A stretch of 64,000 bases of DNA. Source: Demequina sp. NBRC 110057. Its GTDB lineage: Bacteria; Actinomycetota; Actinomycetes; Actinomycetales; Demequinaceae. The stretch covers positions 248,001 to 312,000 of the forward strand of contig NZ_BBRN01000003.1 in the NCBI RefSeq assembly GCF_002090175.1. Direction: 5' to 3'. Within the stretch, counting starts at the first letter, position 1. Every line of letters begins with the position of its first letter. The position numbers and the translations under genes are program-made. Shown here piece by piece: positions 11,396 through 27,903 of the stretch. The notes beneath the pieces were generated by a model. That model was given only the letters and a program-made list of their open reading frames with translations, searched no databases and was not told the DNA's origin.

Positions 11396-11452
11396 GCGGC
11401 TATTTTCTCAAAGGCTTGAGGGCGGCCGATGCCGTGGCCGGCTTGGCAGCCC

Positions 11453-11917
11453 CTACTCCCCCAGGAACGGCCCGCCGTTGTCGCGGGGGCCGTCGGGCGC
11501 GCGGAACTCCAGGCGGCAAATCGCCCGAATGGCACTGACGAGCCACTCGGCGATCATCTCGTCGTACTCCCCCTGCACGCCGCTGAACGCGACGACGAGC
11601 CCCTCGCGCACAATGCCGCCGGGCCACTTGATGTCGCCCGCGCGGTACAGGTGCGGCGAGTGGTCGCGCAGGCGCGAGGTGTCCATGCCGGTGCGCGCGG
11701 CGACGCGAGCCTTGGCGGTGGCCCACTCGACAAACTGCTCGGGGTCGTCGCCCAGGTAGGCGTTGAACAAAGGATCGGCCGATGCGTCGGCCGGGTCAAG
11801 CACCACGACCCCACCCTTGTAGCCGTTAAGCAGGCCGACCTCGTGGCCGCGCGCGATGGCGGGCTCGATGATGTCCCAGGCTTGGGCGCAGATCTCGCTC
11901 GTGATGCCGGTGAACAT
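11453..11917 (-). CDS. hypothetical protein, possibly GlcG/HbpS-like
   Basis: 154 residues, no signal peptide or membrane span. The middle and end (WPGGIVREGLVVAFSGVQGEYDEMIAEWL) resemble the GGxP-[IV]-xxGxxVGAxGVSG...D motif of GlcG/HbpS-type domains, but the match is loose. A Gly-rich start and the pattern VxLLNGYKGGVVVLDP would fit the same alpha/beta fold. It is the last chromosomal-type gene before the defence island, transcribed away from it. Confidence 0.55.
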   Translation of the reverse strand: MFTGITSEICAQAWDIIEPAIARGHEVGLLNGYKGGVVVLDPADASADPLFNAYLGDDPEQFVEWATAKARVAARTGMDTSRLRDHSPHLYRAGDIKWPGGIVREGLVVAFSGVQGEYDEMIAEWLVSAIRAICRLEFRAPDGPRDNGGPFLGE

Positions 11918-12097
11918 GTTGAAGTCCTTTCGCTCGGCGCAACCCCGTCATTCTGGCGCATTCTTCGGCACGGCTCCCGAGGTCGGATCACCGCGACACT
12001 CGCCAAGGGCCGCCGCTCGACACTCCCAGAGCCGATAGCATCCCTGGAGGAGCGCCGGAGCCGTCTTCGCGCACCAAGCCGCCGTGAGGGGAACACA

Positions 12098-15000
12098 ATG
12101 CCGGCCGAAGAACAACGCACGCTTGAAGCCGTCCGTTCGCACCTCCGCGACGCCACGTCAGTTGATTCCCTCTCTGAGTCTTTCTCTGTATTCGTGCACG
12201 AGGCGCTCGAGGGCGACCTCGCAGAGGTCGACGCCCGTCTATTGCTCTGGAAGGACAGCCTCGAGAACCATCCGCTGAACGGCCTGGAGGAAGAGAACCT
12301 TCTCCGAGCCCGCCTTGACCAGCACCGTGTGGCGCGAGATTTCATCGCATGGGCCGAGCACAAACTCGACGTCAGGGCTCTGGCGAAGAGGACCCGCGAC
12401 ACCTCGACGATCGTTCACGGTGCGAACCCCCTTGCCGTCCAGGGCGCCGGCCTTGAAGCGGAGAGTCTGGGTCTGGTCGCGTCGCCAAACCTTCACATGC
12501 CCCTGGGAACGACGGACCGGGCCCAGGTCGGCCAGATCGCCGAGCACTTCGAGCGCGCCTGGAACCACCCCACTGCAGCCGCCGCGGCACGCGAGGCGTT
12601 CTTCGAAGCCGCCCGCGCTCTGTACGAGAACCGCGCCCCAGAGTCTCTGTACCTCCGCATCTTGACATCCCTCTTCAGCGACTTCGTCGACGAGTCGGGC
12701 GAGGAGACCGAGCGGCGTGGCCGCACCGGTTTCTACGACACGGAAGTGTGGAAGAAGCTCTACAAGTTCCAACGGGACGGAGTCCTCGGCGCGATCGAGA
12801 AGCTCGAGCGCCACAATGGCTGCATCATCGCGGACAGTGTTGGTCTCGGAAAGACCTTCGAGGCACTCGCCGTCATCAAGTACTACGAACTCCGCAATGA
12901 CCGTGTGCTGGTGCTCGCTCCGAAGCGTCTTCGCGCGAACTGGACGCTCTACCGCGCCAATGACGCGCGCAACCCTCTGGTTGCCGATCGCTTCAATTTC
13001 GACGTTCTGAACCACACCGACCTGTCTCGCGAAGCCGGCATAAGCGGCGATATCGACCTTGCCCACCTGGAGTGGGGCAACTACGACCTCGTCGTCATCG
13101 ACGAGTCGCACAACTTCCGCAACAACCCTCAGAGGGACGACCGCACCACGCGCTACGAGCGGATGATGAACGCGGTCATCAAGTCCGGCGTGCGCACCAA
13201 GGTGCTCATGCTGTCTGCGACCCCGGTCAACACCCGCCTGGCCGACCTTCGCAACCAAGTCCTCTTCGCCACTGAAGGCGACGACCGGGCGCTCGCACGC
13301 GAGGGAGTGAAGGACATCGGCCAGACCCTTCGCCAAGCGCAGACGCGTTTCAACGCGTGGCAGAAGACCCCCGATGAGCAGCGCACGGCAAAGTCCCTCG
13401 TCGGCATGCTCGGCATGGACTACATCCGGCTTCTCGATCTCCTCACGATCGCCCGCTCTCGCAAGCACATCGAGAAGTACTACGGCGTCGAGGACACAGG
13501 CAAGTTCCCGGAGCGCCTCGCCCCGATCAACCTGACACCAGGCATCGACCTCGACGGCGCCATGATCCCGCTAAACGAGATCAACCGCGCAATCCTGCGG
13601 CTCACTCTCGCCGCCTACAAGCCTACGAGCTACGTGCGCGATGGGCTCAAGGAGAAGTACGCCGAGGTCTACGACAGGTCGCTCCGCACCGGTGGGGCCC
13701 GCAAGTGGATCCAGACGGACCGCGAGAACAACGTGGTACACCTCCTGCGAGTCGGCCTTCTGAAGCGACTCGAGTCCTCGGTGAAGTCGCTCGGCCTCAC
13801 GCTGGGGAAGATCCTCGACACGATCGACGCGTCGATCGAACGCCTCAATGAGTTCGAGGTCGACGGGTCACAGGGCGCGTCGATCCAGGACGAGGGCGCA
13901 GCCGCAAACCTTGGGCTCGACGACCCTGACCTGGACGATGCGGTTGGCGGCAACGTCAAGGTCTATCTCCAGGACATGAACCGCAGCGGTTGGCGGCAGG
14001 ACTTGGAAGCCGACCGTGAGACGGTCGCCTCGCTCCTCGCCGAGGTAACCAAGGTCGACGTCTCACGCGATGCGAAACTGGCCGAACTCAAGCGGTTCCT
14101 GCGCGACAAGGTGGAGAATCCGACAAACGAGGGCAACCGCAAGGCACTGATCTTCACGGCGTTCAGCGACACCGCGCAGTACCTCTACGAGCATGTGGGG
14201 GTGTGGGCACGGCGCGAGCTCGGGGTCAACGTCGCCCTCATCACGGGTCAGTCGACCAAGAGCACTGTGCCTGGTCAGCGCCAGGACATGCACGTCGTGC
14301 TCTCCGCGTTCTCGCCGATCTCGAAGGGAGGCAACCCCGACGGCGACACCGTCGACATCGTCATCGCAACCGACACGATCTCGGAGGGGCAGAACCTCCA
14401 GGATTGCGACACCGTCGTCAACTACGACATCCACTGGAACCCGGTCCGCATCGTGCAGAGATTCGGACGCGTCGATCGCCTCGGATCGTCCAACGCTTCG
14501 GTCCAGCTCGTGAACTTCTGGCCCACGGACGACCTGGATTCGTACATCAACCTCGAAGGCCGGGTCTCGAGCCGGATGAAGCTCCTCGACGTCTCCGCGA
14601 CGGGCGAGGAAAACGTACTCGACTCGTCGGACATGAACGATCTCGACTACAGGCGCCATCAGCTCGAGCAGCTTCAGAAGGCTGCGCCGGCGATGGAGGA
14701 CCTCGCCAGTGGACTGTCGATCACGGACCTCACACTGTCGGACTTCCGCATGGATGCCTCGTCGCGGCCCAGAGCCGAACTTCAGCGCATCGATGCGTGG
14801 CCGCTCGCCCTATTCGGTGTTGCGAGGTTCGATGCAGGGTTGGAGTCGGATGGGCTCTCGCCTGGGGCCGTATTCCTCCTTCGGGTCAGGGCCGATGCGT
14901 TTGGTTTCTCCCAGGCGTATCCGCTCGCCCCGTATGTGCTCGCCTTCGTACGGGACGACGGGACGCTCGCCCACGCTATTGAGGAGCCCAAGCTCGCGCT

Positions 15001-15265
15001 CGACGTGCTTCGCAGGCACGCGCTCGATCGTGCCGAGCCGGACGATGCGGCGATCGCCGACTTCGAAGCAGCGACACGGCGCGGTCGTGACATGAACCAC
15101 TATCGGAGTCTGCTGAGTGTGGCGGTCGAGGCCGCCTCGGGCCATGCGGAGCAGAAGCTAGCGGCTTCCATCTTCTCCTCCGCTCCGTCCTTGCTTGGCG
15201 CCGATGCGACGACCCCCGGGCTGGAGTCGATCGACGTCGTGGCGTGGATGGCGATCGTCCCGTGA
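12098..15265 (+). CDS. SNF2-family helicase of an extended type III restriction-modification operon
   Basis: 1055 residues. A helical N-terminal region (about 1-210) precedes the ATPase. DSVGLGKT (Walker A, residues 246-253), VIDESHNFRNN (DEAH box, near 333), LMLSATPVNT (motif III), and in the second RecA lobe ATDTISEGQNLQDCDTVVNYD plus QRFGRVDRLGS (motifs V and VI) are all intact. The last 200 residues show no nuclease motif that I recognise. ATG at 12098 follows TGAGGGGA. The stop overlaps the next gene by GTGA. Position in a gap-free operon with DUF4391, Mod and Res suggests DNA translocation or remodelling in phage defence. Confidence 0.85.
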   Translation: MPAEEQRTLEAVRSHLRDATSVDSLSESFSVFVHEALEGDLAEVDARLLLWKDSLENHPLNGLEEENLLRARLDQHRVARDFIAWAEHKLDVRALAKRTRDTSTIVHGANPLAVQGAGLEAESLGLVASPNLHMPLGTTDRAQVGQIAEHFERAWNHPTAAAAAREAFFEAARALYENRAPESLYLRILTSLFSDFVDESGEETERRGRTGFYDTEVWKKLYKFQRDGVLGAIEKLERHNGCIIADSVGLGKTFEALAVIKYYELRNDRVLVLAPKRLRANWTLYRANDARNPLVADRFNFDVLNHTDLSREAGISGDIDLAHLEWGNYDLVVIDESHNFRNNPQRDDRTTRYERMMNAVIKSGVRTKVLMLSATPVNTRLADLRNQVLFATEGDDRALAREGVKDIGQTLRQAQTRFNAWQKTPDEQRTAKSLVGMLGMDYIRLLDLLTIARSRKHIEKYYGVEDTGKFPERLAPINLTPGIDLDGAMIPLNEINRAILRLTLAAYKPTSYVRDGLKEKYAEVYDRSLRTGGARKWIQTDRENNVVHLLRVGLLKRLESSVKSLGLTLGKILDTIDASIERLNEFEVDGSQGASIQDEGAAANLGLDDPDLDDAVGGNVKVYLQDMNRSGWRQDLEADRETVASLLAEVTKVDVSRDAKLAELKRFLRDKVENPTNEGNRKALIFTAFSDTAQYLYEHVGVWARRELGVNVALITGQSTKSTVPGQRQDMHVVLSAFSPISKGGNPDGDTVDIVIATDTISEGQNLQDCDTVVNYDIHWNPVRIVQRFGRVDRLGSSNASVQLVNFWPTDDLDSYINLEGRVSSRMKLLDVSATGEENVLDSSDMNDLDYRRHQLEQLQKAAPAMEDLASGLSITDLTLSDFRMDASSRPRAELQRIDAWPLALFGVARFDAGLESDGLSPGAVFLLRVRADAFGFSQAYPLAPYVLAFVRDDGTLAHAIEEPKLALDVLRRHALDRAEPDDAAIADFEAATRRGRDMNHYRSLLSVAVEAASGHAEQKLAASIFSSAPSLLGADATTPGLESIDVVAWMAIVP

Positions 15266-16044
15266 CTCCCGCGCCTGTCGACGTCGTGGAGATGCTGGGG
15301 CTTCCGGCACGCGCGCGAGAGACACATCGGCTCACGAAGAAGGACATCGTTGAGCAGTGGGAGCACTCGGCGCCTGCCGACGCCCGACTCCTCAGCCGGG
15401 CGATCGCCTCGGCAAGAATCGTGGGAGTGTTGAGTCCCGCGACGACCGGCGTTCCTGCCGTCCGCGACGCAGACCGCCCTGTCGACATGATCCCGGTCCT
15501 GGAGGTGCGGATGGCCGACGGCATCACCGCGAAGGATCAGCGCCGCGTAGCCGAGCTCCTGCACCGCGCGATGCCCCGTCCCGCCATCGTCGCCCTGTAT
15601 CCGTCCGAACAGGTCCCTTTTCTCTCGCTCGCCCTCACCAGGCTCAGCAAGACCGAGGCAGGTATGTCGGTCGTAGAGGAGCACCTGGCCGCACCGGCTG
15701 ACCGGATCGTAGCCGCGTCTCTACACGTGGGCGAACTCGACCGCACCGACCTCGGCGCGCTGTACCGCGATCTCGTGCGACGAGCAGCAGCAGACGGGGT
15801 GCCCTCTCCGAGTCTGCGTAACGCCGCCGAGGCGGTGGAACTCCGCCGCCGGGTTGCGGCGCTCGACGAGGATCTCCAGTCGGCGGTGCGCAGCGCAGCG
15901 CGCGAGAAGTCGATGCAACGGCGCATAGCGCACAACGGCGAGGCGCGCATCCTCCGTGACCAGATTGCCCAGACCCGCGCGGCGCTCTTCGGAGCCGGCG
16001 CTGATCAGACCCGAATAAGCGACGACCCTAAGGTAGGACCGTGA
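15262..16044 (+). CDS. DUF4391 protein
   Basis: 260 residues. The family pattern is visible: an N-terminal LPARARETHRLTKKDIVEQW segment with the conserved Lys pair, a central AIVALYPSEQVPFLSLALTRLSK strand-helix, and a C-terminal helical region with RRRVAALDEDLQSAVRSAARE. Known members sit in restriction and SNF2-helicase loci; the molecular role is unknown, an adaptor between helicase and methylase being one guess. GTG 15262 was chosen over GTG 15244 because it forms a four-base GTGA overlap with the helicase stop; its own stop overlaps the mod start in the same way. Confidence 0.78.
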   Translation: MTPAPVDVVEMLGLPARARETHRLTKKDIVEQWEHSAPADARLLSRAIASARIVGVLSPATTGVPAVRDADRPVDMIPVLEVRMADGITAKDQRRVAELLHRAMPRPAIVALYPSEQVPFLSLALTRLSKTEAGMSVVEEHLAAPADRIVAASLHVGELDRTDLGALYRDLVRRAAADGVPSPSLRNAAEAVELRRRVAALDEDLQSAVRSAAREKSMQRRIAHNGEARILRDQIAQTRAALFGAGADQTRISDDPKVGP

Positions 16045-18050
16045 CGACGCCCGCAGACAACGACTCAATTCAGTACGCACCGATCGAGGAACTGAGTGGT
16101 CGGGGTGAGGCCGCCGACAACGTTGCCCGACTCGCCGAGTTGTTCCCGGATGCAGTCACTGATGGGCATGTCGACCTTGAGGCGCTGCGTGGAATCCTTG
16201 GCGATGACGCCGCGCCGGCCGGTAGCGAAGCGTCGGGACTACGGTGGGTCGGAATGGCCGAGGCCCGTCGCCTGTCGACGCTTCCCGCGACCGGGACGCT
16301 CTTGCCCCGCCCGGACGAGTCCGTGGACTGGGACTCGACGCGGAACATCGTGATCGAGGGCGACAACCTCGAGGTTCTCCGACTCCTTCGGCGCGGTTAC
16401 ACGAACGAGGTCGATGTCATCTACATAGACCCGCCCTACAACACCACGAACGACTTCGTCTATGACGACAGCCGCGTCTCGACGGTAGCTGAGCATGAGA
16501 CCGACGCCGGCCTGCGTGATGAGGAAGGTGCAACCCAGGTTGGTGCTGGGTCCAACCGCGCGGAAGAACGCCGTCTCGCCTCTGCACGGCATGCCAAGTG
16601 GCTCTCGATGATGTATCCGCGTTTGCTCGTGGCGCACTCGCTCCTCAAGGAGACGGGCGTGCTCGTCGCGGCGATCGATGACAACGAGCACGCGCGGCTG
16701 AAGTTGCTCTTGGACCGAGTGTTTGGCGCCGAGAACTTTATTGCCAATGTGGTGTGGCAGGGCGGGCGCAAGAACGACTCTCGCTACATTTCCGTGGGCC
16801 ACGACTACATGCTTGTATACGCCAAGAGCGAAGGCGCGCTCGCGGAACTTGGCACTCGGTGGCGCGAAGAAAAGATCGGCGTCGAAGACGTTCTTGCCGC
16901 AGGCCAGCGCGCGTGGAGCGCCGCTGACGGCGACGAGGCCGGGGCTCGGCGCCACATGGTCGATTGGTTCCGTTCGCAGCCCGAAGACTCGCCTGTGCAT
17001 GCCATGGCGCGCTATACCTATTTCTTGCCGGACGGAAGGCTCTGTCGGGACGATAACGTCACCTGGCCCGGCGGCGGCGGGCCGAAGTACGACGTGCTGC
17101 ACCCAGTCACGGGACTTCCGGTGCCTGTTCCCGAGCGTGGCTGGCGTTCATCTGAGCCCAAGATGCTCGAAGACATTGCGGCCGGCCGAATCATCTTCCG
17201 CGACGATCACACGAAGCCCATCAGTGCCAAGCGACCACTTGATGAAGTCACGGGTCAGGTCGCGATGTCGGTTTTCGACCGCCAGCGGACTCACGGCGGA
17301 CGCCGGCTGAAGGAGTTGTTTGATGGTGAGTCACCCTTCGATTTCCCCAAGGACGTAGAAGTGCTGAGTCGCTGGATCAATCTCGTTTCGGGCAGCAAGA
17401 AGGACGCGCTCGTAGTCGATTACTTTGCGGGGTCGGGCTCCACCGGGCACGCTGTCATGGACCTCAACGCCGCTGATGGTGGAATCCGTCGATACATGCT
17501 CGTGCAGCTCGACGAGGAGGTCGGGAAGGACGGCTACGACACCATCGCCGACATCACCCGCGAACGGCTGCGCCGAGCTGGCAAGAAGGTCGCAGAGAAC
17601 CTCACCCTCGAGTCCGCTGACATCGACCTCGGCTTCCGTTCCTACCGCCTTGCGTCGTCGAACCTCGAGCCATGGGACGGTACCGGCGAACTGAACCTGA
17701 TGGAGGCCGTCGACAACCTCGTTGAGGGCCGTTCGAGCGATGACCTGCTGGTCGAGATGATGCTTCGACTCGGCATCGAGCTCACGACGCCTGTCGAGAC
17801 CCGCGAGGTCGCGGGCAGCACCCTCTACAACCTTGGCGCGGGCACGCTCTACGCCTACTTCGGCGAGAACGTGACGACCGAGCTAGCGATCGAGCTGGCG
17901 CGTGCGCTGGTGCAGTGGCGTGACGAGAACCCCGTCGACTCGGACGTGACGATCGTCGTGCGCGACACCGGCTTCGTCGATTCGTCAGCGAAGTTGAACT
18001 TGGACGCCGCAGTGAAGCAGGCCGGATTCACCACCTTCCGGAGCATCTGA
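16041..18050 (+). CDS. mod: type III DNA adenine methyltransferase (Mod)
   Basis: 669 residues. Catalytic motif IV is DPPYNT in IYIDPPYNTTNDFVYDD near residue 130. The AdoMet motif I is DYFAGSGSTGHAVMDL near residue 461. DPPY before FxGxG is the beta-class order of type III Mod proteins. Between them lies about 300 residues of target-recognition sequence that would set the asymmetric recognition site. It methylates adenine N6 to protect host DNA and also guides Res. GTG 16041 overlaps the DUF4391 stop. The Res gene starts 4 bases after its stop. Both catalytic motifs are intact. Confidence 0.9.
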   Translation: MTTPADNDSIQYAPIEELSGRGEAADNVARLAELFPDAVTDGHVDLEALRGILGDDAAPAGSEASGLRWVGMAEARRLSTLPATGTLLPRPDESVDWDSTRNIVIEGDNLEVLRLLRRGYTNEVDVIYIDPPYNTTNDFVYDDSRVSTVAEHETDAGLRDEEGATQVGAGSNRAEERRLASARHAKWLSMMYPRLLVAHSLLKETGVLVAAIDDNEHARLKLLLDRVFGAENFIANVVWQGGRKNDSRYISVGHDYMLVYAKSEGALAELGTRWREEKIGVEDVLAAGQRAWSAADGDEAGARRHMVDWFRSQPEDSPVHAMARYTYFLPDGRLCRDDNVTWPGGGGPKYDVLHPVTGLPVPVPERGWRSSEPKMLEDIAAGRIIFRDDHTKPISAKRPLDEVTGQVAMSVFDRQRTHGGRRLKELFDGESPFDFPKDVEVLSRWINLVSGSKKDALVVDYFAGSGSTGHAVMDLNAADGGIRRYMLVQLDEEVGKDGYDTIADITRERLRRAGKKVAENLTLESADIDLGFRSYRLASSNLEPWDGTGELNLMEAVDNLVEGRSSDDLLVEMMLRLGIELTTPVETREVAGSTLYNLGAGTLYAYFGENVTTELAIELARALVQWRDENPVDSDVTIVVRDTGFVDSSAKLNLDAAVKQAGFTTFRSI

Positions 18051-18054
18051 CGCG

Positions 18055-21000
18055 ATGAAGTTCTCCTTCGACGCGGACCTCGATTACCAGCGTGCCGCCA
18101 TCGACGCCGTGACCGGACTGTTTGCCGGCCAGGATGTGATGACCGGAGCCTTCGATGTGTACGCGCATCCCGCTCTGCACGCGGGCTTCCACGGCATGGC
18201 GGACACCGGTGTCGCCAACCGCCTGGTGCTCGACGCGGACTCCGTCCTTGAGAATCTCCACGCCGTCCAGGAGAACTCAGGCTTCGCGCCGGAGCCGGCT
18301 CTCGCTTCGTCCAACTTCACGATCGAGATGGAGACCGGTACGGGAAAGACGTACGTCTACCTCCGCACCGTCTACGAGCTGAACCAGCTGTACGGGTTCA
18401 CCAAGTTCATCGTCGTTGTGCCCTCGGTCGCCATCAAGGAAGGCGTGCTGACCTCGCTCGGGATGCTGAAGGAGCACTTCGGGTCCCTGTATGGCAACCC
18501 GCCGATGCAGTACTTCCAGTACGACGGAGCCAACCCGTCGCGTGTGCGTTCCTTCGCCACGTCGTCGGGCATCGAGATCATGGTCGTCACCGTGGCGGCG
18601 ATAAACAAAGCCTCGAACACGATGCACAAGCCGGTGGAGGCCCTTGACGACGAGCGGCCGATCGACCTGATCGCCGCGACGAAGCCCATCGTCATCGTCG
18701 ACGAACCCCAGAGCGTCTATGGCGACGACGGCAGCCCACGCAAGAAGAAGGGCGCTGGCCGCGTAGCCATCGAGAAGTTCGATCCGCTCGCGGTGCTGCG
18801 GTATTCGGCCACGCATCCCAAGTTCGACAAGGGAAACCTCGTCTACCGCCTGGACGCCATCGCCGCGTACGAGAAGCAGCTCGTGAAACAAATCGAGGTG
18901 GACTCGCTCGTGACCGAGTCCAGCGGGACTTCGCCGTATGTGCAACTCAAGAGTGTGAAGCGCACTGCCGGTCGGTTCAGCGCGCGCGTCGAGGTGGATG
19001 CGGAGCAGGGCGGGAAAATCGTGCGCAAGGTCGTTACGGTGCGCGACCACGACAATCTGCAGTTCATCACTGGCCGTGATCTCTACAAGGACCTCACAGT
19101 GAGTGGGCTGAGTGTGTCGCCTGACTGGATCCGTTTCCACGAGGTCGCGGAGGAGCTTCGTCCAGGAGAGTCGATCGGCGCTGAGGTGAGTCTGGGTGAG
19201 CGGGCGCGTCAGATGATCGCGCAGACGATCCGCCAACATCTGCGCAAGGAGAAGGAGTTCGCCTTCTCAGGTCTCCCGATCAAGGTGCTGAGCCTGTTCT
19301 TCGTTGACTCGGTTGCCAAGTACCGGGAGTACGACGCCGACGGCGTGGCGCAGCCGGGGGAGTACGCGCTCATCTTCGAGGAGGAGTACGCGAAGGTCTC
19401 GCGCGAGGCCGAGTTCTCGACGATCCTTCCTGAGCAGCCCGCAGACGCTGTGGCACAAAACGCCCATCAGGGCTACTTCTCCGTCGACCGCAACAAGAAG
19501 AGTGGTGCAGAGCGGTTTGTCGATACGGCCGAAACCACCGCTGCTGGGCGTCAGCAGGCGGAATTTGCGTACGAGCAGATCATGAGGAACAAGGTCGAGC
19601 TCACCAAACCGGGGACCCCGATCCGCTTCATCTTCAGCCACTCCGCTCTCCAGGAGGGGTGGGACAACCCAAACGTCTTCCAGGTCTGCGTGCTGCGCAA
19701 CATGGGGTCTGAGCGGTGGCGGCGTCAGAGCATCGGCCGCGGTCTGCGCCTCGCGGTGGACGGCCACGGCAACCGAATCCGCGGATTCGGCGTCAACCGC
19801 CTGACGGTCATCGCCAACGAGTCCTTCGAGGAGTTCGCCGAGCAGCTCCAGCATGAGCTCGCCGAGGACCTCGGTATCGAGTTCGGCAAGGTCACCATCG
19901 ACGGATTTGCGCGGCTCACCTTCAAGGATCCCGATCAGGACGGGAAGGTCGTTCCGGTCGGCAACGACTCTGCGCAGAAGCTCTTCGAGAGCCTCGTGGC
20001 CGGCGGCTACGTCGACAAGGCTGGTGCTGTCCAGGAGTCGCTGCGGAAGGCGATCACGGAGGACAGCGAGAGCCTCAAGGCTTTGGTTAAGGACGTCGTC
20101 GAAACGGATGTGGCGCAAATCGCACTGCTCGGGCTCCTCAAGCGCCTGTCGAAGCCGATCGAGATCAAGAAGGCGTCCGAGCGTGTCGTCGTGCCCGTCG
20201 TCCGCGAGCGGCTCGAGAGCCCGGAGTTCGAGGCGTTGTGGAGTCGAATCCGGCATCGGACCGAGTACCGACTGCACGTGGACGAGGAGAACCTGCGAGA
20301 GACGCTGATCGACAAGCTGCGACAGATGGAACCTGTTCGGAAGCGCAAGGGCGAATGGCAGACCTCTCGCGTCGAGCGGATCGATCAGAGCGGTCTCACC
20401 GCCGATGTTACGAGTATTCGCCGCGCGGACATGACCTACGCGGACTCTGAAGACCTGCCCGACATCCTGTCGGTGCTCGCAGACAGGACGCAGCTCACGC
20501 GCGCGACGATCGCTTCGGTTCTCACCGAGTCTGGGACGTTGCCACAGTTCCGCGACAACCCGCAGGCCTACGTGGACCGAGTCTCAAAGCTGCTGAACGA
20601 GACGAAGGCGCAGTTTCTGGTGAACGGGCTCACATATGACCTGGTTGCCGATGATCGTCCCGATGATGACCGATGGTACCCGCTCACTCTGCTCGAGCAG
20701 GCTGATCTCCAGGGCTATGTGGGTAACGGCGGCAACGTCGTCGTCAACAGCGATGGCGAGGCAATCGACTTCAGTGCCAAGTCCCCGTACACCCATGTGG
20801 TGTCGGACTCCCAGGTGGAGTCCGCTCTCGCGCTCGAGTTGCTTCGCCGCGAGGACGTAAAGTCCTTCGTCAAGCTGCCCTCGAACTTCACGGTGCCGAC
20901 GCCGTTCGGGAAGTACAACCCGGACTGGGCGGTTACCGTGGAGACCCCCGATGGTGGCCGCCACATAGTTTTCGAGACCAAGGGGACGACGAACACGGCG

Positions 21001-21138
21001 CTGCTCGGCGGGTTCCAGGAGCCGAAGACGATCGCTGGCCGACTCCACTTCTCGACGGTCGCCGAGAGGCTCGGATACGGCGATCTGAAGTACGCGGTTG
21101 GGGTTGGCATAAATGACCTCGAGGGTTCCCTTGAGTAG
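18055..21138 (+). CDS. res: type III restriction enzyme helicase-nuclease subunit (Res)
   Basis: 1027 residues, the usual Res length. Helicase motifs: METGTGKTYVYLRT (Walker A, near residue 94), VIVDEPQS (motif II, DEPQ variant typical of Res, near 216), QEGWDNPNVFQVCVLR (motif V) and RRQSIGRGLRLAVD (motif VI). The C-terminal nuclease is complete: NPDWAV near residue 955 and VFETKGT near 973, a PD...ExK arrangement. ATG 18055 follows the Mod stop by 4 bases. With Mod it should cut DNA after ATP-driven contact between sites. Everything needed for activity is present. Confidence 0.9.
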   Translation: MKFSFDADLDYQRAAIDAVTGLFAGQDVMTGAFDVYAHPALHAGFHGMADTGVANRLVLDADSVLENLHAVQENSGFAPEPALASSNFTIEMETGTGKTYVYLRTVYELNQLYGFTKFIVVVPSVAIKEGVLTSLGMLKEHFGSLYGNPPMQYFQYDGANPSRVRSFATSSGIEIMVVTVAAINKASNTMHKPVEALDDERPIDLIAATKPIVIVDEPQSVYGDDGSPRKKKGAGRVAIEKFDPLAVLRYSATHPKFDKGNLVYRLDAIAAYEKQLVKQIEVDSLVTESSGTSPYVQLKSVKRTAGRFSARVEVDAEQGGKIVRKVVTVRDHDNLQFITGRDLYKDLTVSGLSVSPDWIRFHEVAEELRPGESIGAEVSLGERARQMIAQTIRQHLRKEKEFAFSGLPIKVLSLFFVDSVAKYREYDADGVAQPGEYALIFEEEYAKVSREAEFSTILPEQPADAVAQNAHQGYFSVDRNKKSGAERFVDTAETTAAGRQQAEFAYEQIMRNKVELTKPGTPIRFIFSHSALQEGWDNPNVFQVCVLRNMGSERWRRQSIGRGLRLAVDGHGNRIRGFGVNRLTVIANESFEEFAEQLQHELAEDLGIEFGKVTIDGFARLTFKDPDQDGKVVPVGNDSAQKLFESLVAGGYVDKAGAVQESLRKAITEDSESLKALVKDVVETDVAQIALLGLLKRLSKPIEIKKASERVVVPVVRERLESPEFEALWSRIRHRTEYRLHVDEENLRETLIDKLRQMEPVRKRKGEWQTSRVERIDQSGLTADVTSIRRADMTYADSEDLPDILSVLADRTQLTRATIASVLTESGTLPQFRDNPQAYVDRVSKLLNETKAQFLVNGLTYDLVADDRPDDDRWYPLTLLEQADLQGYVGNGGNVVVNSDGEAIDFSAKSPYTHVVSDSQVESALALELLRREDVKSFVKLPSNFTVPTPFGKYNPDWAVTVETPDGGRHIVFETKGTTNTALLGGFQEPKTIAGRLHFSTVAERLGYGDLKYAVGVGINDLEGSLE

Positions 21139-21171
21139 TATTCGAGCAACTCGAAGCCACCGCGAGGCGAC

Positions 21172-21822
21172 GTGACACCCAGTTCGGTAACTCAGGTCGT
21201 GATCTGGTTGCTGGCATTGGTACCAGGCATCGTCTACCGTGCTGCTCGCATGCGATCTGCAGGTGCGAACTCAAGAGATCTAGACGCCACTCATCGAATC
21301 CTCGGCGCCTTCGTCGCCTCGGTGGTGTTTGCTGCGTGTTACGCGTTGTTGTTCGGGGACGCCATTCTCGAACTACTGACGACGCCCATCGCGGAGACCG
21401 ACCTCGCGACACTCGGAGGCACTGCAATTGTGTGCTGCGTCGTTGCGCCCATGCTTGTCGCCGTGGCGGTCAACGTCGCGGCCAATGTTGCAGCGAAGGA
21501 GAACTGGCAAGATCTCCGTGGCTGGAAGTCGTCCGACAAAAGGATTCGCACCACCACGGCCAATGTCGCCGCATGGCTGTATGTGAACGCGCTCGGGCGC
21601 TTCATTAGGGTCACTCCGTGGGACCTCCGAGTGCCGCACCTCGGGGACACTTGGGTTCGGATCCGCAAACGTGACGGAGTCTTCCTGATGGGGTATCTTT
21701 CCGCCGAAGCCGGATTCGTCGCAACGTATCCTGACCGGCCATCGCTATTCCTCTCCCCTCAGGCAAGTGTCGATTCGGACGGGACATTCATCAAAGTCGC
21801 TCCAGATGGGCGGGGACTCTAG
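21172..21822 (+). CDS. DUF6338-family membrane protein, C-terminus interrupted by in-frame TAG
   Basis: 216 residues up to the first stop. Three hydrophobic segments near residues 5-20, 44-62 and 78-105 anchor the protein. The cytoplasmic part carries the family's TPWD (residues in RVTPWDLRVP) and a GDTWVRIRKRDG...GYLSAEAGFVATYPD...LFLSP strand pattern. The TAG at 21820-21822 falls inside the final family motif: the same frame continues for 35 codons (YELEPGDMVEFLDQ...) to TGA 21928-21930, as intact members would. So this is probably a nonsense mutation, read-through site or sequence error. GTG start 21172 follows GCGAGG. It lies 33 bp after Res; role unknown. Confidence 0.7.
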   Translation: MTPSSVTQVVIWLLALVPGIVYRAARMRSAGANSRDLDATHRILGAFVASVVFAACYALLFGDAILELLTTPIAETDLATLGGTAIVCCVVAPMLVAVAVNVAANVAAKENWQDLRGWKSSDKRIRTTTANVAAWLYVNALGRFIRVTPWDLRVPHLGDTWVRIRKRDGVFLMGYLSAEAGFVATYPDRPSLFLSPQASVDSDGTFIKVAPDGRGL

Positions 21823-21931
21823 TATGAACTCGAGCCCGGAGATATGGTCGAGTTCCTCGACCAGGGCGATGATGAAAGCCCGCCCAGCGGGGAGAAGTCC
21901 GAGTCCGCGAACGATCACCGAGAGGGATGAA

Positions 21932-22099
21932 ATGGCTGACACAGACCCGAAGCGGAAGTCTCTTGTTGGCGGCGCCGTGCCGTTTAGCGAGGGGGCATCA
22001 CTTACGCATGGTGCTTTTCCCTCAAGCGCAGCAAAGGGTGTACCCCGTCCTCCGGCGAAGACGCCAGCGTCGTCGAGTGACGCGAACCCGAAGAAGTAG
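21932..22099 (+). CDS. 55-residue protein following the DUF6338 gene
   Basis: Begins MADTDPKRKSLVGGAVPFSE and ends in a Pro/Ala/Ser-rich tail with a terminal NPKK. No domain is recognised. It has GAGAGGG upstream of the ATG and begins just after the TGA (21928-21930) that would end the uninterrupted DUF6338 frame, which supports the longer DUF6338 frame being ancestral. The charged, low-complexity make-up suggests a small accessory or substrate protein. I rate coding status as likely but unproven. Confidence 0.5.
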   Translation: MADTDPKRKSLVGGAVPFSEGASLTHGAFPSSAAKGVPRPPAKTPASSSDANPKK

Positions 22100-22242
22100 T
22101 CAACCCGACCCGATCCACTCTGGCTCGTAGGCCCAGCGGATACGCGGCGAGACATTGCCGTAGCGACAGGCAGATGACGATTCCTCACGAGGAGTGTGCG
22201 AAGTAGACGTTGCGGGTCCGTAGTGCATTGGCTCCCCGGCAC

Positions 22243-22276
22243 ACCGACTCTAGGCACCACGAGGCTAGGAGTCGGT
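22243..22276. terminator. stem-loop between the Res/DUF6338 genes and the convergent DUF262 gene
   Basis: ACCGACTC (22243-22250) pairs with GAGTCGGT (22269-22276), and TAG/CTA extends the stem past one bulged G. It lies within the 250-bp gap (22100-22351) between convergent genes and could terminate either strand. No T-tract follows. Nothing else was seen in the gap. Confidence 0.4.
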
Positions 22277-22351
22277 CACGTAGCAACGTCGGCGGCGCCA
22301 TAGTCGGACTAGAGTGCGGTGTGCAGGCCCCGCGCGCTAAGGCGCGATCGG

Positions 22352-24211
22352 CTAAGCGTCGGATCTGCCTGGTTCGTCTGCATCATCAAAGGCAACTTCA
22401 AATTCGACATCGTCGAACTGCTCCGAACCTTCATCAGCGTGGCCAGCGTCGATGTCTCGTTGAACGGCCTTACCAAGAACCGCCTCTACGATGACGCAGA
22501 GCGCCTCGCGACGCTCGCGGAAGAACGCATCAAAATCATCAATGCGAAGTGCCGCTGACGGCACCGCGTGGCTGGCGAGGACGGCGTCGAGTTGGGACGC
22601 TTCGATTTGACCTCGACTTTGAATAACTTGCACATATTCCGACGGTGCCGCGCCCCCAATCGTTCGATTAGTACGAGCGCTGATCGCAGTCTTGTTGACG
22701 ATGCTCTCCCTACGCTCGTCGTCGATCCCGTGCTGGTGGCACCAGTGCTGAGGGAAGATGTGATGAATGTCCACTGCGAGGTCGACATACTGGACTTTGT
22801 CGAGAGCCTTGTCTTCCATCCAGTCCCGTGCCCCGTTGGCGAGCAGAAGCGCGGCAATGCCTTTGTAGGCCGCCGCGTTGCGCGTCCGCAGCGAGTGGAG
22901 GCGCGACTCCGTGAAGTTCGCATCCTGAACGGTCCGCGGTGTCGATTCCGTCTGACCGAGCGCCCAGCCGGGCACCATCTCAATGTCGCGTGCGAACCTC
23001 GTCTCGATCGCCGATCCATAAAGCTCACCGAGCACTCCACACCAGTACCAGCGCCGGAGCTTCTCGCTCACGCCGACCAGGTCCGCATCCTTGCCCAGCA
23101 CAACCCGGATCGCCGCTAGCGGCACGAGCTGTTTTGCGTAGGGGATGTCCCGCGATACGAAGATGTGCCGATCTGCGAGGAAGGTCGCGGCCCAGGCAAA
23201 TGCCTCACGCAAAGGATCGCGCCATCGAAGGTAGTCCTGGAGGGTGAGCTTCAAGACATCCTCGCGCTTGGCGGAGATCGCAGGGCGCCGTTCCGACGTG
23301 TCGCTCAGGTGTCGTTCCCGCGTTGTGAGCATCGTCACCGCCTGCAGGAAGTCGGTACTTTCCACTTTGCTCAATACAGGTTGCTGGGCCCACGCGCGCT
23401 GCGTCTCGTGCCAGTCGTCGTTCAACCTGAAGTCCTGGCCTGTCTCCGCAAAGAAGTCCGCATCGCCTGCGAACACGGCTGTCAGGAGCTCGAACACGTT
23501 AAGCGGCAGGCCTCCAATGTTGACTTTCTCGAACACAGTGGCGACCGCCGCTTTGTCCGTACTCTCGTCGAGCACGATCGCTGGGATATCGTAGGTCGCT
23601 GCCGGCTTGATGAACGCCTCGTGGAACTGCTTGCCCAGGTCGCGATCGTCGAGTTCGAGGATCCAACTCATGTAGTCGCCATACAGCAGATGCAACGGAA
23701 AGTAGCCGAGCGCTCGCTGCTTGTCGAAGTCGCTGAGGTCGAGTTCGACGTCTTTGCCGAAGTTCGTCCGCACGACCCCGTCAGCAGGAATGCTGATGAC
23801 CGCCTCATCGACGCGGTCGAACGACGATAGTGCCGACTCCATGTGAACGAGGTATCGCCGGTCAAGGAGCTTTCCGCGACTGTCTTTCGTGGCCACGGCA
23901 CCGTTGCCACTCAACGCTTGAGTGAGCGACGTCAAACGCTGTTGCCCATCGAGGAGTAGGTGCTTGGCCTCGGTACCAGGCTGCAGGTCGACCCCTTCGA
24001 TCGCGCGTGGCTTGAAGCGGACCTGCGCGTTTCCAGTCTTGAGGAGCATGACTGCACCCATGGGATGACCTCTAAGCACCGTCACGAGCAGCTGGCGGAT
24101 GCGCTCGTCTTCCCACTTGTACCCGCGCTGGAAGTCCGGCAACTGAATCTCGCCAGACCGCGTCCACGCGAGGTACTCGCCCAACTCGTACATCGGCGTC
24201 AGGAAGCCCAT
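22352..24211 (-). CDS. DUF262/DUF1524 protein, GmrSD-like type IV restriction nuclease
   Basis: 619 residues. The DUF262 domain starts with IQLPDFQRGYKWEDERIRQLL (split across residues 22-42) and has the signature LLLDGQQRLTSL at 86-96, the ParB-like NTP-binding loop. The C-terminal DUF1524 HNH nuclease has DIHHIFPQHW at 481-490 and a later NKTAI Asn near 506. Fused GmrS-GmrD proteins cut DNA with modified bases such as glucosylated hydroxymethylcytosine, so this would act against modified phages that evade the type III system. It converges with that operon, and a small helix-turn-helix gene lies 37 bp upstream in the same direction. Confidence 0.83.
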   Translation of the reverse strand: MGFLTPMYELGEYLAWTRSGEIQLPDFQRGYKWEDERIRQLLVTVLRGHPMGAVMLLKTGNAQVRFKPRAIEGVDLQPGTEAKHLLLDGQQRLTSLTQALSGNGAVATKDSRGKLLDRRYLVHMESALSSFDRVDEAVISIPADGVVRTNFGKDVELDLSDFDKQRALGYFPLHLLYGDYMSWILELDDRDLGKQFHEAFIKPAATYDIPAIVLDESTDKAAVATVFEKVNIGGLPLNVFELLTAVFAGDADFFAETGQDFRLNDDWHETQRAWAQQPVLSKVESTDFLQAVTMLTTRERHLSDTSERRPAISAKREDVLKLTLQDYLRWRDPLREAFAWAATFLADRHIFVSRDIPYAKQLVPLAAIRVVLGKDADLVGVSEKLRRWYWCGVLGELYGSAIETRFARDIEMVPGWALGQTESTPRTVQDANFTESRLHSLRTRNAAAYKGIAALLLANGARDWMEDKALDKVQYVDLAVDIHHIFPQHWCHQHGIDDERRESIVNKTAISARTNRTIGGAAPSEYVQVIQSRGQIEASQLDAVLASHAVPSAALRIDDFDAFFRERREALCVIVEAVLGKAVQRDIDAGHADEGSEQFDDVEFEVAFDDADEPGRSDA

Positions 24212-24248
24212 GCCAACTCCTTTCGGTCAGTTTGCTGCGACGCTCGCG

Positions 24249-24437
24249 TCACTCCGCGCCTCCGCTGTGCCGGTTTGGTTGCATGACGCGCCTTACGGCA
24301 TCGACCATCTCGTCGTCGAGCACCCAACGAGCATGCTTGTTCTCGCCGTTCGGTCGGTAGATGTCGCGGAGGACTGCTCTCACTCTGCGTTGATCCACGC
24401 CGAGCTGGACCGCGATTTCTTTGGGAGTCGTAGCCAT
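24249..24437 (-). CDS. small helix-turn-helix-like protein upstream of the GmrSD-like gene
   Basis: 62 residues. Residues 4-26 (TPKEIAVQLGVDQRRVRAVL) have the periodicity of a helix-turn-helix: an A-x-x-L-G-V turn followed by an Arg-rich recognition helix. The rest is charged. No full-length family is recognised. The gene lies between the NERD helicase (ends 24545) and the DUF262 gene (starts 24211) on the same strand, so it may regulate them or serve as a DNA-binding partner. Confidence 0.6.
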   Translation of the reverse strand: MATTPKEIAVQLGVDQRRVRAVLRDIYRPNGENKHARWVLDDEMVDAVRRVMQPNRHSGGAE

Positions 24438-24544
24438 GGCTCGAACCTATCGATCATCCGCTGCATGTGCCGGTCCATCGTGTGGCGTTCTCCCGCCTGA
24501 GGCATCTCGCGGACCATCACCGACGCTGGCGCACCGACTCTGTG

Positions 24545-26629
24545 TCATCCCAACACCCCCACCCACAGCCCATCGCGCGCTCGCGTCATCCCCACATAGA
24601 GTTCGCGCCGGGCGAGATCCCAGCGCTCACGCTCCACCTCGTTTTCCGGCGGCACCGCTCCTGCGAGTAGCGAAGTGGAGACATCGGCGACCACCACCTG
24701 CTTGAACTCGAGACCCTTGGCACGCTTGATCGTTCCCACCTTGACCGCGTCCACAGGTGAACCGTCGTACGACGTCAGTTTCACGACAGGTATGCCAGCC
24801 ACTTTCAGGGCATCGGCGATCCGGTTGGCCGTATAGCCCGAGTACGACAGCACGCCGATGTCGCCCCAATTGGTCGCAACGTCTGTCTGCACCTGCTCGA
24901 CGTGACGGACCACCCGCCGGTCCATCTCGGTCTTGGTCATGCACTCGACGACCGAGGGCTCAGGTCCGGTTCGCGGCACGTTCCCGGGCCGCTCGCCGCG
25001 AGCGATCTCTCCGTCGATGTCTGCGTATTCCGAACCAGCGATGACCCCGTGCGCAAAGTCGAGGACCTCCCGCGTGTTGCGGTAGTTGGTGTCGAGCACC
25101 ACGCCACGGTTCGCGACCGAGATTCCCGCCTCCGCAAGCGTGTAGCCGCCGGGGTAGATGGACTGCTGGCCGTCGCCGATGAGCGTGAATCCGTCGGGCG
25201 CGTCGCCGACGATGGAATGCAGCATGCGCACCATGGCACAGCTCAGGTCTTGCGCCTCGTCCACAATCACGGCGGCGAACGGCTCGTCAAGCGGCAGGCG
25301 GCGCAGCTCAGACTCGGCGAGCAGGATCACATCCGCGAAGTCGTGGACCCGGGCCGCGCGCAGTTCGCTCGAGTAATCCTCGTAGAGATCCCACACCGCG
25401 CGCCGCTGCACTGCACCAAGCTGATGCCCCCTCCCAGTGCGCACAAGATCCGCGTATGCGCGGAAGTCAGTGACGCCACGCCCCTTCAGCACGTGCGCGA
25501 TCTCGTCCTTCCAGTACGCCTGCGGTAGCCCCTTCGCCTTAAGGGGACTATCGCCTGACAGACTCCCCCACGCGCGACGGAAGGCAGCATCGGCCAACTT
25601 CGCGTCGACCTTGACACTCACTCCCCTGTCGCGCAGAACACCGAGCGCAAACTGGTGGACGCCCATGAAGTCGACGCGGTCAGCGACGTCCGGCGCCATG
25701 CGGTCGAGGTGGCTCTTGAGAACATCGGGCAGGGTGCGCACGAAGGTCGTCACGAGCACGCGGCCCGGCCGCGTGCGGGCGAGGTACGCAGCGCGGTGCA
25801 AGCCCACGACCGTCTTCCCGGTGCCCGCTGCACCACGAATGCGAGAAGGCCCCTTGAAGTTGCGGCGAACTAGTTTCGCCTGGTCCGGGTGGAGGAAGGA
25901 CATCCACTCCTCGATCGGCTGCGCAAGGATTCCGACAAGGATCGCGGCTGCGACGTCGGACTGTTCCAGGAGCGCTGGCGGGAGTTCCGGTTCGGGCGGC
26001 GGAGAGAGAACGGGCTCGGCCACGACTGCCTGTGGGGCGGGACTGGCGCCGACCAACGGGAACAGCTTGAGCGCACGCTCGAGGACCGCATCGACTTGGC
26101 CGGGTGTGAGCCGGGTGCCGCGCCCGGCGATGTAGCGAGCGATGTCCTTTTCACCGACGATGTCGACAGGGCCGATGCGGTGGCTGAGTTGCGCATGACC
26201 TGCCAACACCACCACGACGTGCACTTCTCCGGGCGCGAGGCCTACGACTGCGAGGTCTTCCTCAACGGTATCGCCCAGGTCGGCCAGACTCATCAGGGAT
26301 TCGGTGACGTCCTCGTCGGCGCGGAAGATTCGCTGGTCGCGGATCGAGACATCGTTCCACGCCTTCGTATCGACGATGAAGACCCCCTGCGGCCCCAGGG
26401 CCACAAGGTCCACCTGTGCGCTGCGACTGCCCGGCCACTTGCGATCGGCAAGGAACGTAACGCCGATGGCGGAGAGCGGCGCGAGTGCTTCCATAGTGCG
26501 GCGCTCGGTGATAGACGCGATGTCATATCGGCCGGCCGTCGCGTTGGCCTCCTTGGCAGCCGCTGCATGTGCTTGCGCGAGCGCGCGCTGGCGCTGCGCC
26601 TCGATTCCGGCCGATTCCCCTGCGAACAT
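24545..26629 (-). CDS. NERD-domain UvrD-like helicase
   Basis: 694 residues from ATG 26629 (GTG 26635 is an alternative; a GCGGGGG ribosome-like run lies before both). Residues about 45-150 form the NERD nuclease-related domain, with SRSAQVDLVALGPQGVFIVDTKAW giving the D...(D/E)xK pattern in split form. The UvrD-type motor follows: GAAGTGKTVVGLH (Walker A, near 265), VIVDEAQDLS (motif II), DTNYRNTREVLDFA, IKRAKGLEFKQVVVADV and YVGMTRARD (motif VI). Similar NERD-helicases are common in defence islands. It is probably co-transcribed with the small HTH and DUF262 genes and divergent from the SHOCT gene. Confidence 0.83.
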   Translation of the reverse strand: MFAGESAGIEAQRQRALAQAHAAAAKEANATAGRYDIASITERRTMEALAPLSAIGVTFLADRKWPGSRSAQVDLVALGPQGVFIVDTKAWNDVSIRDQRIFRADEDVTESLMSLADLGDTVEEDLAVVGLAPGEVHVVVVLAGHAQLSHRIGPVDIVGEKDIARYIAGRGTRLTPGQVDAVLERALKLFPLVGASPAPQAVVAEPVLSPPPEPELPPALLEQSDVAAAILVGILAQPIEEWMSFLHPDQAKLVRRNFKGPSRIRGAAGTGKTVVGLHRAAYLARTRPGRVLVTTFVRTLPDVLKSHLDRMAPDVADRVDFMGVHQFALGVLRDRGVSVKVDAKLADAAFRRAWGSLSGDSPLKAKGLPQAYWKDEIAHVLKGRGVTDFRAYADLVRTGRGHQLGAVQRRAVWDLYEDYSSELRAARVHDFADVILLAESELRRLPLDEPFAAVIVDEAQDLSCAMVRMLHSIVGDAPDGFTLIGDGQQSIYPGGYTLAEAGISVANRGVVLDTNYRNTREVLDFAHGVIAGSEYADIDGEIARGERPGNVPRTGPEPSVVECMTKTEMDRRVVRHVEQVQTDVATNWGDIGVLSYSGYTANRIADALKVAGIPVVKLTSYDGSPVDAVKVGTIKRAKGLEFKQVVVADVSTSLLAGAVPPENEVERERWDLARRELYVGMTRARDGLWVGVLG

Positions 26630-26844
26630 CAACACCCCCGCTGGGACAATATCGGAAGGCGTCGCGAGAAAGTTGAATCATCTGCCGTCGTCGATACCGC
26701 CGAGCCCGCGACCCTGCGTGTGCCGGCTGTGTCACAGGCTTCACCTAGAATCTCACTGGGCTCCGGGCCGCGAAGAGATATCGCGGGTCGAGACGCGGAT
26801 TCGCGCGAGCAGCGAAGCCACGCGAAGTATCGAAAGTGGGGATC

Positions 26845-27678: not shown

Positions 27679-27791
27679 TCGCGGCCCCCGACGCGCAAGA
27701 TATCTATCTCGGACGCCGCCATTGGCGCGTGACCTCGGTCGCGTAAACAACCGCGCGCGGCGGCGAGCGGCGAGCCACGGGTTTCCGCCGA

Positions 27792-27825
27792 CGCCGGCTT
27801 CGCGCACACCCACGTGAAGCCGGCG
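27792..27825. terminator. 10-bp perfect stem-loop at the end of the first defence block
   Basis: CGCCGGCTTC (27792-27801) and GAAGCCGGCG (27816-27825) are perfect complements; three more pairs, one of them G-T, extend inward to an 8-base loop. It lies between the SHOCT gene stop and the monooxygenase start. Without a T-tract it is a non-canonical terminator candidate. Confidence 0.45.
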
Positions 27826-27903
27826 CTCTCGGAGTAGCGTTTCGAATCTGTCTAGATCACCTGCTCTACACTCGCCTCATCTCAACGACGAGAAAGAGGA
27901 ACG

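Follow-up and report, generated by a model that had tools for sequence, protein, structure and literature searches.

A candidate four-gene variant of type III restriction-modification in Demequina sp. NBRC 110057, with an SNF2-family ATPase and a DUF4391 protein encoded ahead of Mod and Res

Introduction

Type III restriction-modification (R-M) enzymes are described as two-subunit machines, and annotation tools require only Mod and Res for a locus to be named type III. Such enzymes hemimethylate an asymmetric site of 4-6 bp, and their ATP-dependent cutting requires two sites. In a 64,000-nucleotide stretch of the genome of Demequina sp. NBRC 110057 (contig NZ_BBRN01000003.1, positions 248,001 to 312,000; referred to here as the window), the genes for both subunits are preceded by two others, one encoding an SNF2-family ATPase and one a DUF4391 protein. 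The question raised by this locus is whether the two additional proteins are part of the restriction system or only travel beside it. Their association with Mod and Res is well supported by the comparison of homologous loci. The reading preferred here, to which a probability of about 0.55 is given, is that the operon encodes a variant form of type III R-M whose SNF2 motor, itself dead as a nuclease, would be tied to Mod and Res by DUF4391.

Operon structure and gene assignment

The four genes and the domains discussed below are placed as follows.

12098 to 15265, forward strand: gene for an SNF2-family ATPase/helicase of 1055 amino acids (aa) with a PLD-like N-terminal domain (ATG 12098, stop 15265; Pfam and PADLOC)
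12098 to 12712, forward strand: PLD/HKD-type domain without the HxK nuclease motif (SNF2 residues ~1-205; alignments of SNF2 homologues)
15262 to 16044, forward strand: gene for a DUF4391 protein of 260 aa (GTG 15262; Pfam PF14335, 1.3e-26)
16041 to 18050, forward strand: gene for Mod, a type III beta-class DNA methyltransferase of 669 aa (GTG 16041; Pfam and PADLOC)
16638 to 17345, forward strand: probable target recognition region of Mod (residues ~200-435), its least conserved part
18055 to 21138, forward strand: gene for Res, a type III restriction subunit (helicase and PD-(D/E)xK nuclease) of 1027 aa (ATG 18055; Pfam and PADLOC)
20779 to 21084, forward strand: C-terminal nuclease domain of Res (RE_endonuc, residues 909-1010; Pfam 7.3e-22)

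The first-pass annotation had described a tight operon in this order, and its description of the DNA stands. All four open reading frames (ORFs) lie on the forward strand where it had placed them, GTGA overlaps join SNF2 to DUF4391 and DUF4391 to Mod, and 4 bases separate the Mod stop at 18050 from the Res ATG. The purine-rich stretch gtgaggggaacaca lies immediately 5' of the SNF2 ATG at 12098. The SNF2 frame is open upstream as far as 11429, but an antisense ORF (11453-11917) occupies that space, the DNA of 11429-11919 is 92% identical in G452, a relative from the same genus, and the block shared with a second relative (G023) at 90% identity has an edge at 11918, so that 12098 is a sensible choice of start. 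For DUF4391, an in-frame GTG at 15244 is a possible alternative start.

Mod matches Pfam N6_N4_Mtase (5.4e-23) and PADLOC MTase_III (5.4e-161), with DPPY at 130 before FAGSG at 462, which is the beta-class order. Conservation of its probable recognition region was 0.36, compared with 0.50-0.68 in the three other parts measured, residues 1-89 lying outside the measurement. Res matches Pfam ResIII (2.8e-11) and RE_endonuc as well as PADLOC REase_III (8.8e-256) and carries the GTGKT, DEPQ, and PDW...ETKG motifs; over 90 cassettes its nuclease residues D957, E974, and K976 were found in 90, 89, and 90, respectively. By the Mod and Res features tested, the Demequina system is a type III R-M system. 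The comparison with PADLOC that the first-pass annotation had proposed gave the same picture, naming Mod and Res as type III and SNF2 as C3a139, and no PADLOC model matched the window DUF4391.

Co-occurrence of the four genes

Loci were collected from the SNF2 side in named genomes (the best 80 of at least 581 relatives) and in IMG/VR viral contigs (77 loci kept). The patterns used to find them derive from 11 aligned SNF2 proteins, every one of them from a DUF4391 locus, and the sample therefore leans to this subtype. A locus was counted as readable when at least 9 kb followed downstream, which set aside 27 of the 80 genome loci and 28 of the 77 viral loci. SNF2, DUF4391, Mod, and Res occurred in this order in 51 of the 53 readable genome loci, and on viral contigs all three partners followed SNF2 in 40 of the 49 readable loci, with the order kept in 39. 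The 51 complete genome loci fall into 12 phyla, and all 80 named loci into 19 named phyla, with 2 unassigned; the single archaeon among the 80 (L100) is without Res.

A second sample, free of the bias of the SNF2 patterns, was taken from the DUF4391 side with the Pfam model in 396 Actinomycetota genomes. DUF4391 was found in 13 of these, and nine of the 12 loci beyond the window hold all four genes (in L027 the SNF2 gene is split into two ORFs and was counted as present). Of the three incomplete loci, one is cut by the contig end after SNF2, DUF4391, and Mod, one (G400) has no adjacent Res, its sole Res homologue at 1e-60 lying 133 kb off, and one (G434) has no SNF2 in the stretch read. Counted from the Res side at an E limit of 1e-60, with the window genome included, a Res homologue occurred in 22 of the 396 genomes; DUF4391 was present in 12 of the 14 with a full-length Res and in none of the eight with shorter or partial matches. 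The same layout was found in two plasmid relatives whose DUF4391 is only 30% identical, one of them with an insertion sequence (IS) interrupting Res, and five further plasmid loci (L191-L195) hold all four genes. In L195, from a Lactococcus dairy plasmid, additional methylase ORFs stand between Mod and Res. A plasmid of Paraburkholderia phytofirmans (L003) likewise carries a complete cassette.

The spacing between SNF2 and DUF4391 was 30 bases or less in 48 of the 51 complete genome loci, with a median of -4. Pairwise distances of the four families were correlated over 90 cassettes (89 loci and the window, single intact copies only), with Mantel r of 0.64-0.84 compared with 0.18 as the largest value of 999 permutations. 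This correlation shows that the four genes are inherited as a unit, although it is by itself no demonstration of contact. The view of the first-pass annotation that the additional pair forms a set with Mod and Res is borne out by both the gene order and the congruent distances. It had also named adjacency in only a few genomes as one mark of an incidental pair, and the adjacency seen here spans nearly all readable genome loci and many phyla.

Site specificity

Near copies of an Escherichia coli cassette on pLAO18 (L194) were present in 10 of 5426 complete E. coli genomes, nine of them with at least 80% of the cassette. When the pLAO18 cassette was compared with three of the ten near copies, SNF2 was 98.3-99.7%, DUF4391 93.6-98.5%, and Res 98.5-99.0% identical, compared with 69-70% for Mod. 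The divergence of Mod is central, with 100-base windows at 22-79% identity over about 900-1100 bases; one such interval, at the DUF4391-Mod junction, was also low (0.40-0.43), owing to a length difference. DUF4391 was considered as a specificity subunit and rejected, being near-constant in cassettes that differ chiefly in the Mod recognition region. The variation in specificity sits in Mod, and SNF2 and DUF4391 are therefore not specificity subunits. The SNF2-DUF4391 pair would thus seem to work with Mods that differ in specificity. In 54 of the 5426 genomes the chromosome carries a second SNF2-DUF4391 pair.

The SNF2 motor and its PLD domain

The window SNF2 matches Pfam SNF2-rel_dom (7.4e-9) and Helicase_C (9.8e-15), and its best PADLOC name is C3a139 'HKD+Snf2' (2.5e-109, 365 bits). 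The GLGKT, DESH, and QRFGR motifs are present, and Walker A K252, D335/E336, R788, and R791 are conserved in 90 of 90 cassettes. The state of the PLD domain is different: in the aligned columns of 150 SNF2 homologues, H and K of HxK were both kept in only six and neither in 140, with the F of the FT frame retained in 129. The window protein keeps none of H, K, F, and T at these columns (H and K in two alignments). By these alignments, the window SNF2 lacks the PLD nuclease site, and its PLD domain is probably catalytically dead.

The six HxK-intact homologues are L132, L138, L153, L161, L169, and L089. The first five retain both the GSSNFT motif and the HGK of the catalytic site, and the SNF2 of L153 matches Pfam PLDc_2 (2.7e-10, residues 105-182); the contig of L089 ends just past SNF2. 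In a FastTree phylogeny of SNF2 the HKD-intact state requires two changes, as L089, a long branch from a truncated contig, stands apart from the other five, which leaves the number and direction of the changes unsettled.

Membership in BREX or Dpd was rejected: BrxHI and DpdE are listed for this SNF2 by PADLOC and NCBIfam, far below C3a139 and below the NCBIfam cut-off where one is given. On one viral contig (L118, 5858-12114), SNF2 overlaps Res directly, with no Mod and no DUF4391 found, and the C-terminus of this SNF2 matches the PADLOC models Orf5 and HEC-06.

The DUF4391 protein

The AlphaFold2 model of DUF4391 (pLDDT 93.0, pTM 0.87; core alone 94.4) predicts an alpha/beta core of about residues 1-180 and a C-terminal helical hairpin of about 188-243. 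Neither the whole model nor its core could be matched with confidence to a PDB fold by Foldseek or VIA-align, an absence that does not show a new fold. The best Foldseek E-values were 0.12 and 0.072 in the PDB and 0.035 in viral models; the best VIA-align match of the core reached Z 5.0 over 121 residues with a root-mean-square deviation of 4.4. For the whole model, the rows with high Z were long-helix matches. A profile search of solved structures returned weak rows only, the best being a response regulator at E 0.0037. Across 44 sequences, only M1, K26, and P105 are near-invariant. A degenerate restriction-endonuclease fold, suggested by weak matches to 9y1l and Hjc and by the order of strands and helices, was rejected as too thin, with no conserved ExK-type residues. 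Because there is no convincing structural match and only these three residues are nearly invariant, DUF4391 seems unlikely to be an enzyme and more likely to have a binding role. Among the open PubMed Central (PMC) articles listed by the literature searches, DUF4391 was found solely as a table row of PMC7784981, subscription papers lying mostly outside the coverage.

HKD-intact sister operons

Five HKD-intact loci, all on viral contigs (L132, L138, L153, L161, and L169), form a small comparison set for the window system. Their SNF2s belong to one family with those of the four-gene operons, since bit scores to the window SNF2 are about equal (714 and 737 for HKD-intact SNF2s compared with 739 for the E. 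coli four-gene SNF2). No Mod or Res follows SNF2 in any of the five, with only 1.3 kb available downstream in L161. Instead, SNF2 is followed in all five by a large protein with a DUF4391-like N-terminus, the L161 copy being cut by the contig. The four copies scanned carry an Eco57I-type methylase domain, with that of L153 best named type IIG. An ATPase gene then follows in L132, L153, and L169, and none was seen after the L138 methylase.

Matches of the sister N-termini to Pfam DUF4391 are weak (8.6e-5 to 0.028) and under the curated cut-off. In hhalign, DUF4391 against the sister N-terminus gave 147 columns at 96.8% with E 2.8e-10, and the core alone 1.4e-10, both being single-pair E-values. 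A DUF4391-like domain is thus fused to a methylase of another class where the SNF2 nuclease motif is intact, and in operons that have Res as the nuclease DUF4391 stands as a separate protein.

Genomic setting and embedded genes

The host genome measures 2.7 Mb. The Pfam DUF4391 model matches the window genome, none of 36 other genomes of the genus, and one of 22 others of the order, where it is a lone gene (G039). GC content is lower over the cassette and the following genes (0.61-0.66 in 12001-28000 compared with 0.66-0.74 elsewhere). The DNA of G023 (L208) matches the window as far as 11918 and resumes the match at 24542. Between these points G023 has 11.5 kb of different sequence, with ORFs that resemble type I S and R subunits as judged by eye; in G452 (L207) other genes, including an ORF of 1812 aa, come after the left flank. 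Because both relatives carry other genes at the same place, window positions 11919-24541 look like a hotspot for the exchange of restriction systems, as far as the three relatives read can indicate.

A DUF6338 gene (21172-21822, forward strand) begins 33 bases past Res and may be cotranscribed. A GmrSD_N (DUF262) protein, with PADLOC names PDC-M55C/HEC-05, is encoded beside the operon at 22352-24211 on the reverse strand, inside the variable stretch. A NERD-UvrD helicase protein (24545-26635, reverse strand; PADLOC C3a187/GajB) is common to G023, lying in the DNA shared from 24542.

Insertions of more than 250 bases between operon genes occurred in 64 of 157 SNF2 loci, and 96 of the 108 inserted ORFs are on the same strand as the operon. 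After removal of six fragments of the four genes and of ORFs below 150 aa, 84 ORFs from 53 loci were scanned. RhuM was matched by six, GmrSD_N and Bro-N by four each, Schlafen and PLD by three each, YhcG by two, and DarT by one. PADLOC candidates include PDC-S05, one model of which had up to 10 members, and the models GajA, IetS, AbiP2, and PDC-S06 were each matched in single cases. Examples, from a range of L036-L185, lie at L180:12752-16478, L171:14949-17300, and L111:13940-15466. The window operon itself is without embedded cargo.

A WYL-domain protein precedes the cassette in several loci, upstream of SNF2 in L196, L197, and L198 and at 1-633 in L193. The gene is annotated as a remnant in three E. 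coli plasmids and as a coding sequence in Citrobacter. WYL regulators of the BrxR type near type III restriction systems are described in passages of PMC9122601.

Proposed mechanism and alternative explanations

In the preferred reading, Mod would recognize and methylate one asymmetric site and alone set specificity, and Res would be the ATP-dependent nuclease, the two acting as in other type III enzymes. SNF2 would be a double-stranded-DNA motor with its dead PLD domain kept for docking or for gripping DNA, and DUF4391 an adaptor joining this motor to Mod, or to Mod-Res, a job that in the sister systems may be done in cis by the DUF4391-like N-terminal domain of the methylase. On unmethylated DNA, SNF2 would most likely load beside site-bound Mod-Res, and ATP-driven movement or remodelling would license Res or bring it to cut. 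Physical contact between the proteins, motor action, the need of the pair for restriction, and the direction of evolutionary change are what we infer from the comparisons above. The first-pass annotation had conjectured that the pair may be a translocation or activation module. More tentatively, DUF4391 may be a general adaptor between PLD-SNF2 motors and methylases of two classes, type III Mod and the IIG/Eco57I type, the four-gene system having arisen as the motor lost its nuclease and Res took over cutting; this wider proposal is rather more likely to fail than to hold.

Several findings weigh against an obligatory four-part enzyme, the strongest coming from the three-gene type III systems with N4-methylcytosine (m4C) methylation, which carry an extra helicase-like ATPase of another lineage. 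PMC8259958 reports that this helicase is not needed for methylation by Mod, and that an Eco86II preparation without the helicase by mass spectrometry still cut DNA partially. By analogy, a dispensable helicase, although of another lineage, weakens the case for SNF2 as an obligatory subunit. Partners are also missing from some loci. DUF4391 and Mod occur without Res in the two remaining genome loci (L100 and L108) and in three of the viral ones. Among the other viral loci, one has Res only (L118) and five have DUF4391 only, these being L187 and four of the HKD-intact methylase operons, in which the weak match lies inside the larger protein. DUF4391, Mod, and Res stand without SNF2 in L022, and G039 has its lone DUF4391. 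Mod-Res pairs without DUF4391 are found beside another SNF2 lineage of about 950-1000 aa (L190, L231, L232, and L234), and both additional genes are absent from L188 and L189; in L188 an IS and a Mod-like fragment lie just upstream of mod, and the cassette may be damaged. Finally, a gap of more than 300 bases occurs somewhere in 27 of the 51 genome and 22 of the 40 viral complete operons. Gaps of this size in about half of the complete operons mean that tight co-translation of all four genes is not required, and the fixed co-translation assumed in the first-pass annotation holds for the SNF2-DUF4391 junction but not for the others. The arrangement of the window, free of gaps, is thus one of two frequent forms.

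Such exceptions, in both directions (L022, L118, L187, G039, L188, and L189), together with a DUF4391-Mod gap above 300 bases in 14 of the 51 genome loci, would fit two independent systems, one a defence pair of SNF2 and DUF4391 and the other a two-gene type III system of the ordinary kind, joined by selection for co-transfer alone. The congruent distances, the conserved order, the 4-base SNF2-DUF4391 overlap, the DUF4391-like domain on the sister methylase-type protein, and the switching of specificity within an otherwise constant cassette all speak against such independence and make it highly improbable. Besides the HKD-intact operons, L187 is also the only one of 102 readable loci with SNF2-DUF4391 but no detected Mod, and a Res gene ends just upstream of it.

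The pair might alternatively form a second line that watches Mod-Res and acts when restriction fails or is blocked by a phage, outside ordinary cutting, in the way that PrrC stands guard over a type I system. A guard role would suit an operon that habitually hosts embedded genes, with GajA-, IetS-, and AbiP2-like, RhuM, GmrSD, and DarT cargo, as well as the existence of Mod-Res pairs without SNF2 and DUF4391 and the dispensability of the Eco86II helicase for methylation and partial cutting in vitro, as passages of PMC8259958 describe it. Unlike the diverse cargo, however, SNF2 and DUF4391 are almost always present, come first in the gene order, and are inherited together with Mod-Res, and no toxic activity is apparent, the SNF2 nuclease site being gone and DUF4391 having no match to an effector fold, although this last point counts for little; a guard is considered unlikely. 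A role in modification or self-protection, in which the motor clears proteins or replication intermediates for Mod or strips Res from host DNA, would agree with a DUF4391-like domain that belongs to the methylase-type protein of the sister operons rather than to SNF2, and with the statement in parts of PMC8259958 that two m4C type III systems need Res besides Mod for efficient methylation. It appears distinctly unlikely, as the helicase of the three-gene systems is, by the same source, not required for methylation, and the HKD-intact sister SNF2 is a likely nuclease, which places SNF2 on the restriction side.

Should the wider adaptor proposal be true, restriction in this subtype would depend on two ATP-driven motors of different kinds, a genuine SNF2 translocase together with the Res switch; to our knowledge, no type III enzyme of this make has been characterized. 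The four-gene form would make it testable whether type III restriction ever uses a true DNA translocase, and the dead PLD domain and the live one of the sister operons offer a natural pair for comparison. As a recurrent carrier of embedded defence genes, the operon may also aid the discovery of more of them.

Comparison with known systems

DISARM combines the SNF2 helicase DrmD with a methylase and a PLD protein. The likeness to the window system consists of an SNF2 helicase adjoining a methylase, and PADLOC DrmD models match the window SNF2 with up to 121 bits. Assignment as DrmD was rejected with 148.9 bits against a cut-off of 610 for NF038317 and 99.1 against 950 for NF038318; for the seven window proteins scanned, the only match to another DISARM model among the best 25 listed was a DrmA cross-match of SNF2. 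Hma, which passages of PMC8565338 describe as an HmaA-type helicase with a 5-methylcytosine methylase and an ATPase, was likewise rejected, as the HmaA model reached 85.8 bits compared with 365 for C3a139 (PADLOC has no cut-off) and the window methylase is of the N6/N4 class.

The operons of HKD-SNF2 and IIG/Eco57I-type methylase (PADLOC C3a139) share with the window system the SNF2 family and a DUF4391-like domain. They differ in their intact PLD motif, in the position of the DUF4391-like domain on the methylase N-terminus, and in that no Mod or Res was seen. These operons are related in kind to the systems of HKD-SF2 helicase (superfamily 2, SF2) and methylase described in part of PMC10853773.

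No description of the set of SNF2, DUF4391, Mod, and Res was found among the matches listed from the open PMC literature, subscription papers being mostly outside that coverage, and within this scope the statement of the first-pass annotation, that it knew no named system of exactly these four parts, holds. An extra SF2 helicase 5' of a type III mod had nevertheless been published in 2021, when Murray et al. reported the three-gene m4C systems Eco86II and BspHIV; in PMC8259958 the gene for the extra helicase-like ATPase immediately precedes mod and res, and it is reported close by in more than 500 genomes. The window system agrees with this subgroup in having an SF2 helicase-like ATPase without an intact nuclease motif 5' of mod. 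To compare the lineages, 53 kb of E. coli NCTC86 (L242) were read, a locus that is probably Eco86II, given the strain and the order of its genes; the comparison covers this one of the two published systems. The NCTC86 SNF2 scores 62 bits to the window SNF2 and 834 bits to that of L190, its Mod is 25% identical to the window Mod over 502 aa, and BLASTP finds no significant similarity between its Res and that of the window. In the window SNF2 and mod are separated by DUF4391, and the NCTC86 locus is without it. Among the loci examined, DUF4391 goes with the PLD-SNF2 lineage and not with type III systems generally.

The other lineage (L190, L231, L232, and L234) finds its best PADLOC match in the DrmD model PDLC02619 with 581-706 bits, and its genes, including that of L242, may be called DISARM despite their setting in a type III operon.

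The four-gene form is thus distinct from the published three-gene form and was not found in print among the papers listed. Classical two-gene type III systems are represented by EcoP15I, EcoP1I, and LlaFI, with EcoP15I being Mod2Res1. The window system shares with them the beta-class order of Mod, the variable recognition region, a Res with SF2 and C-terminal PD-(D/E)xK domains, and the position of Mod before Res, and differs from them in two additional conserved genes, SNF2 and DUF4391, 5' of mod. A widespread four-gene form, distinct from that of 2021, would change the annotation of such loci.

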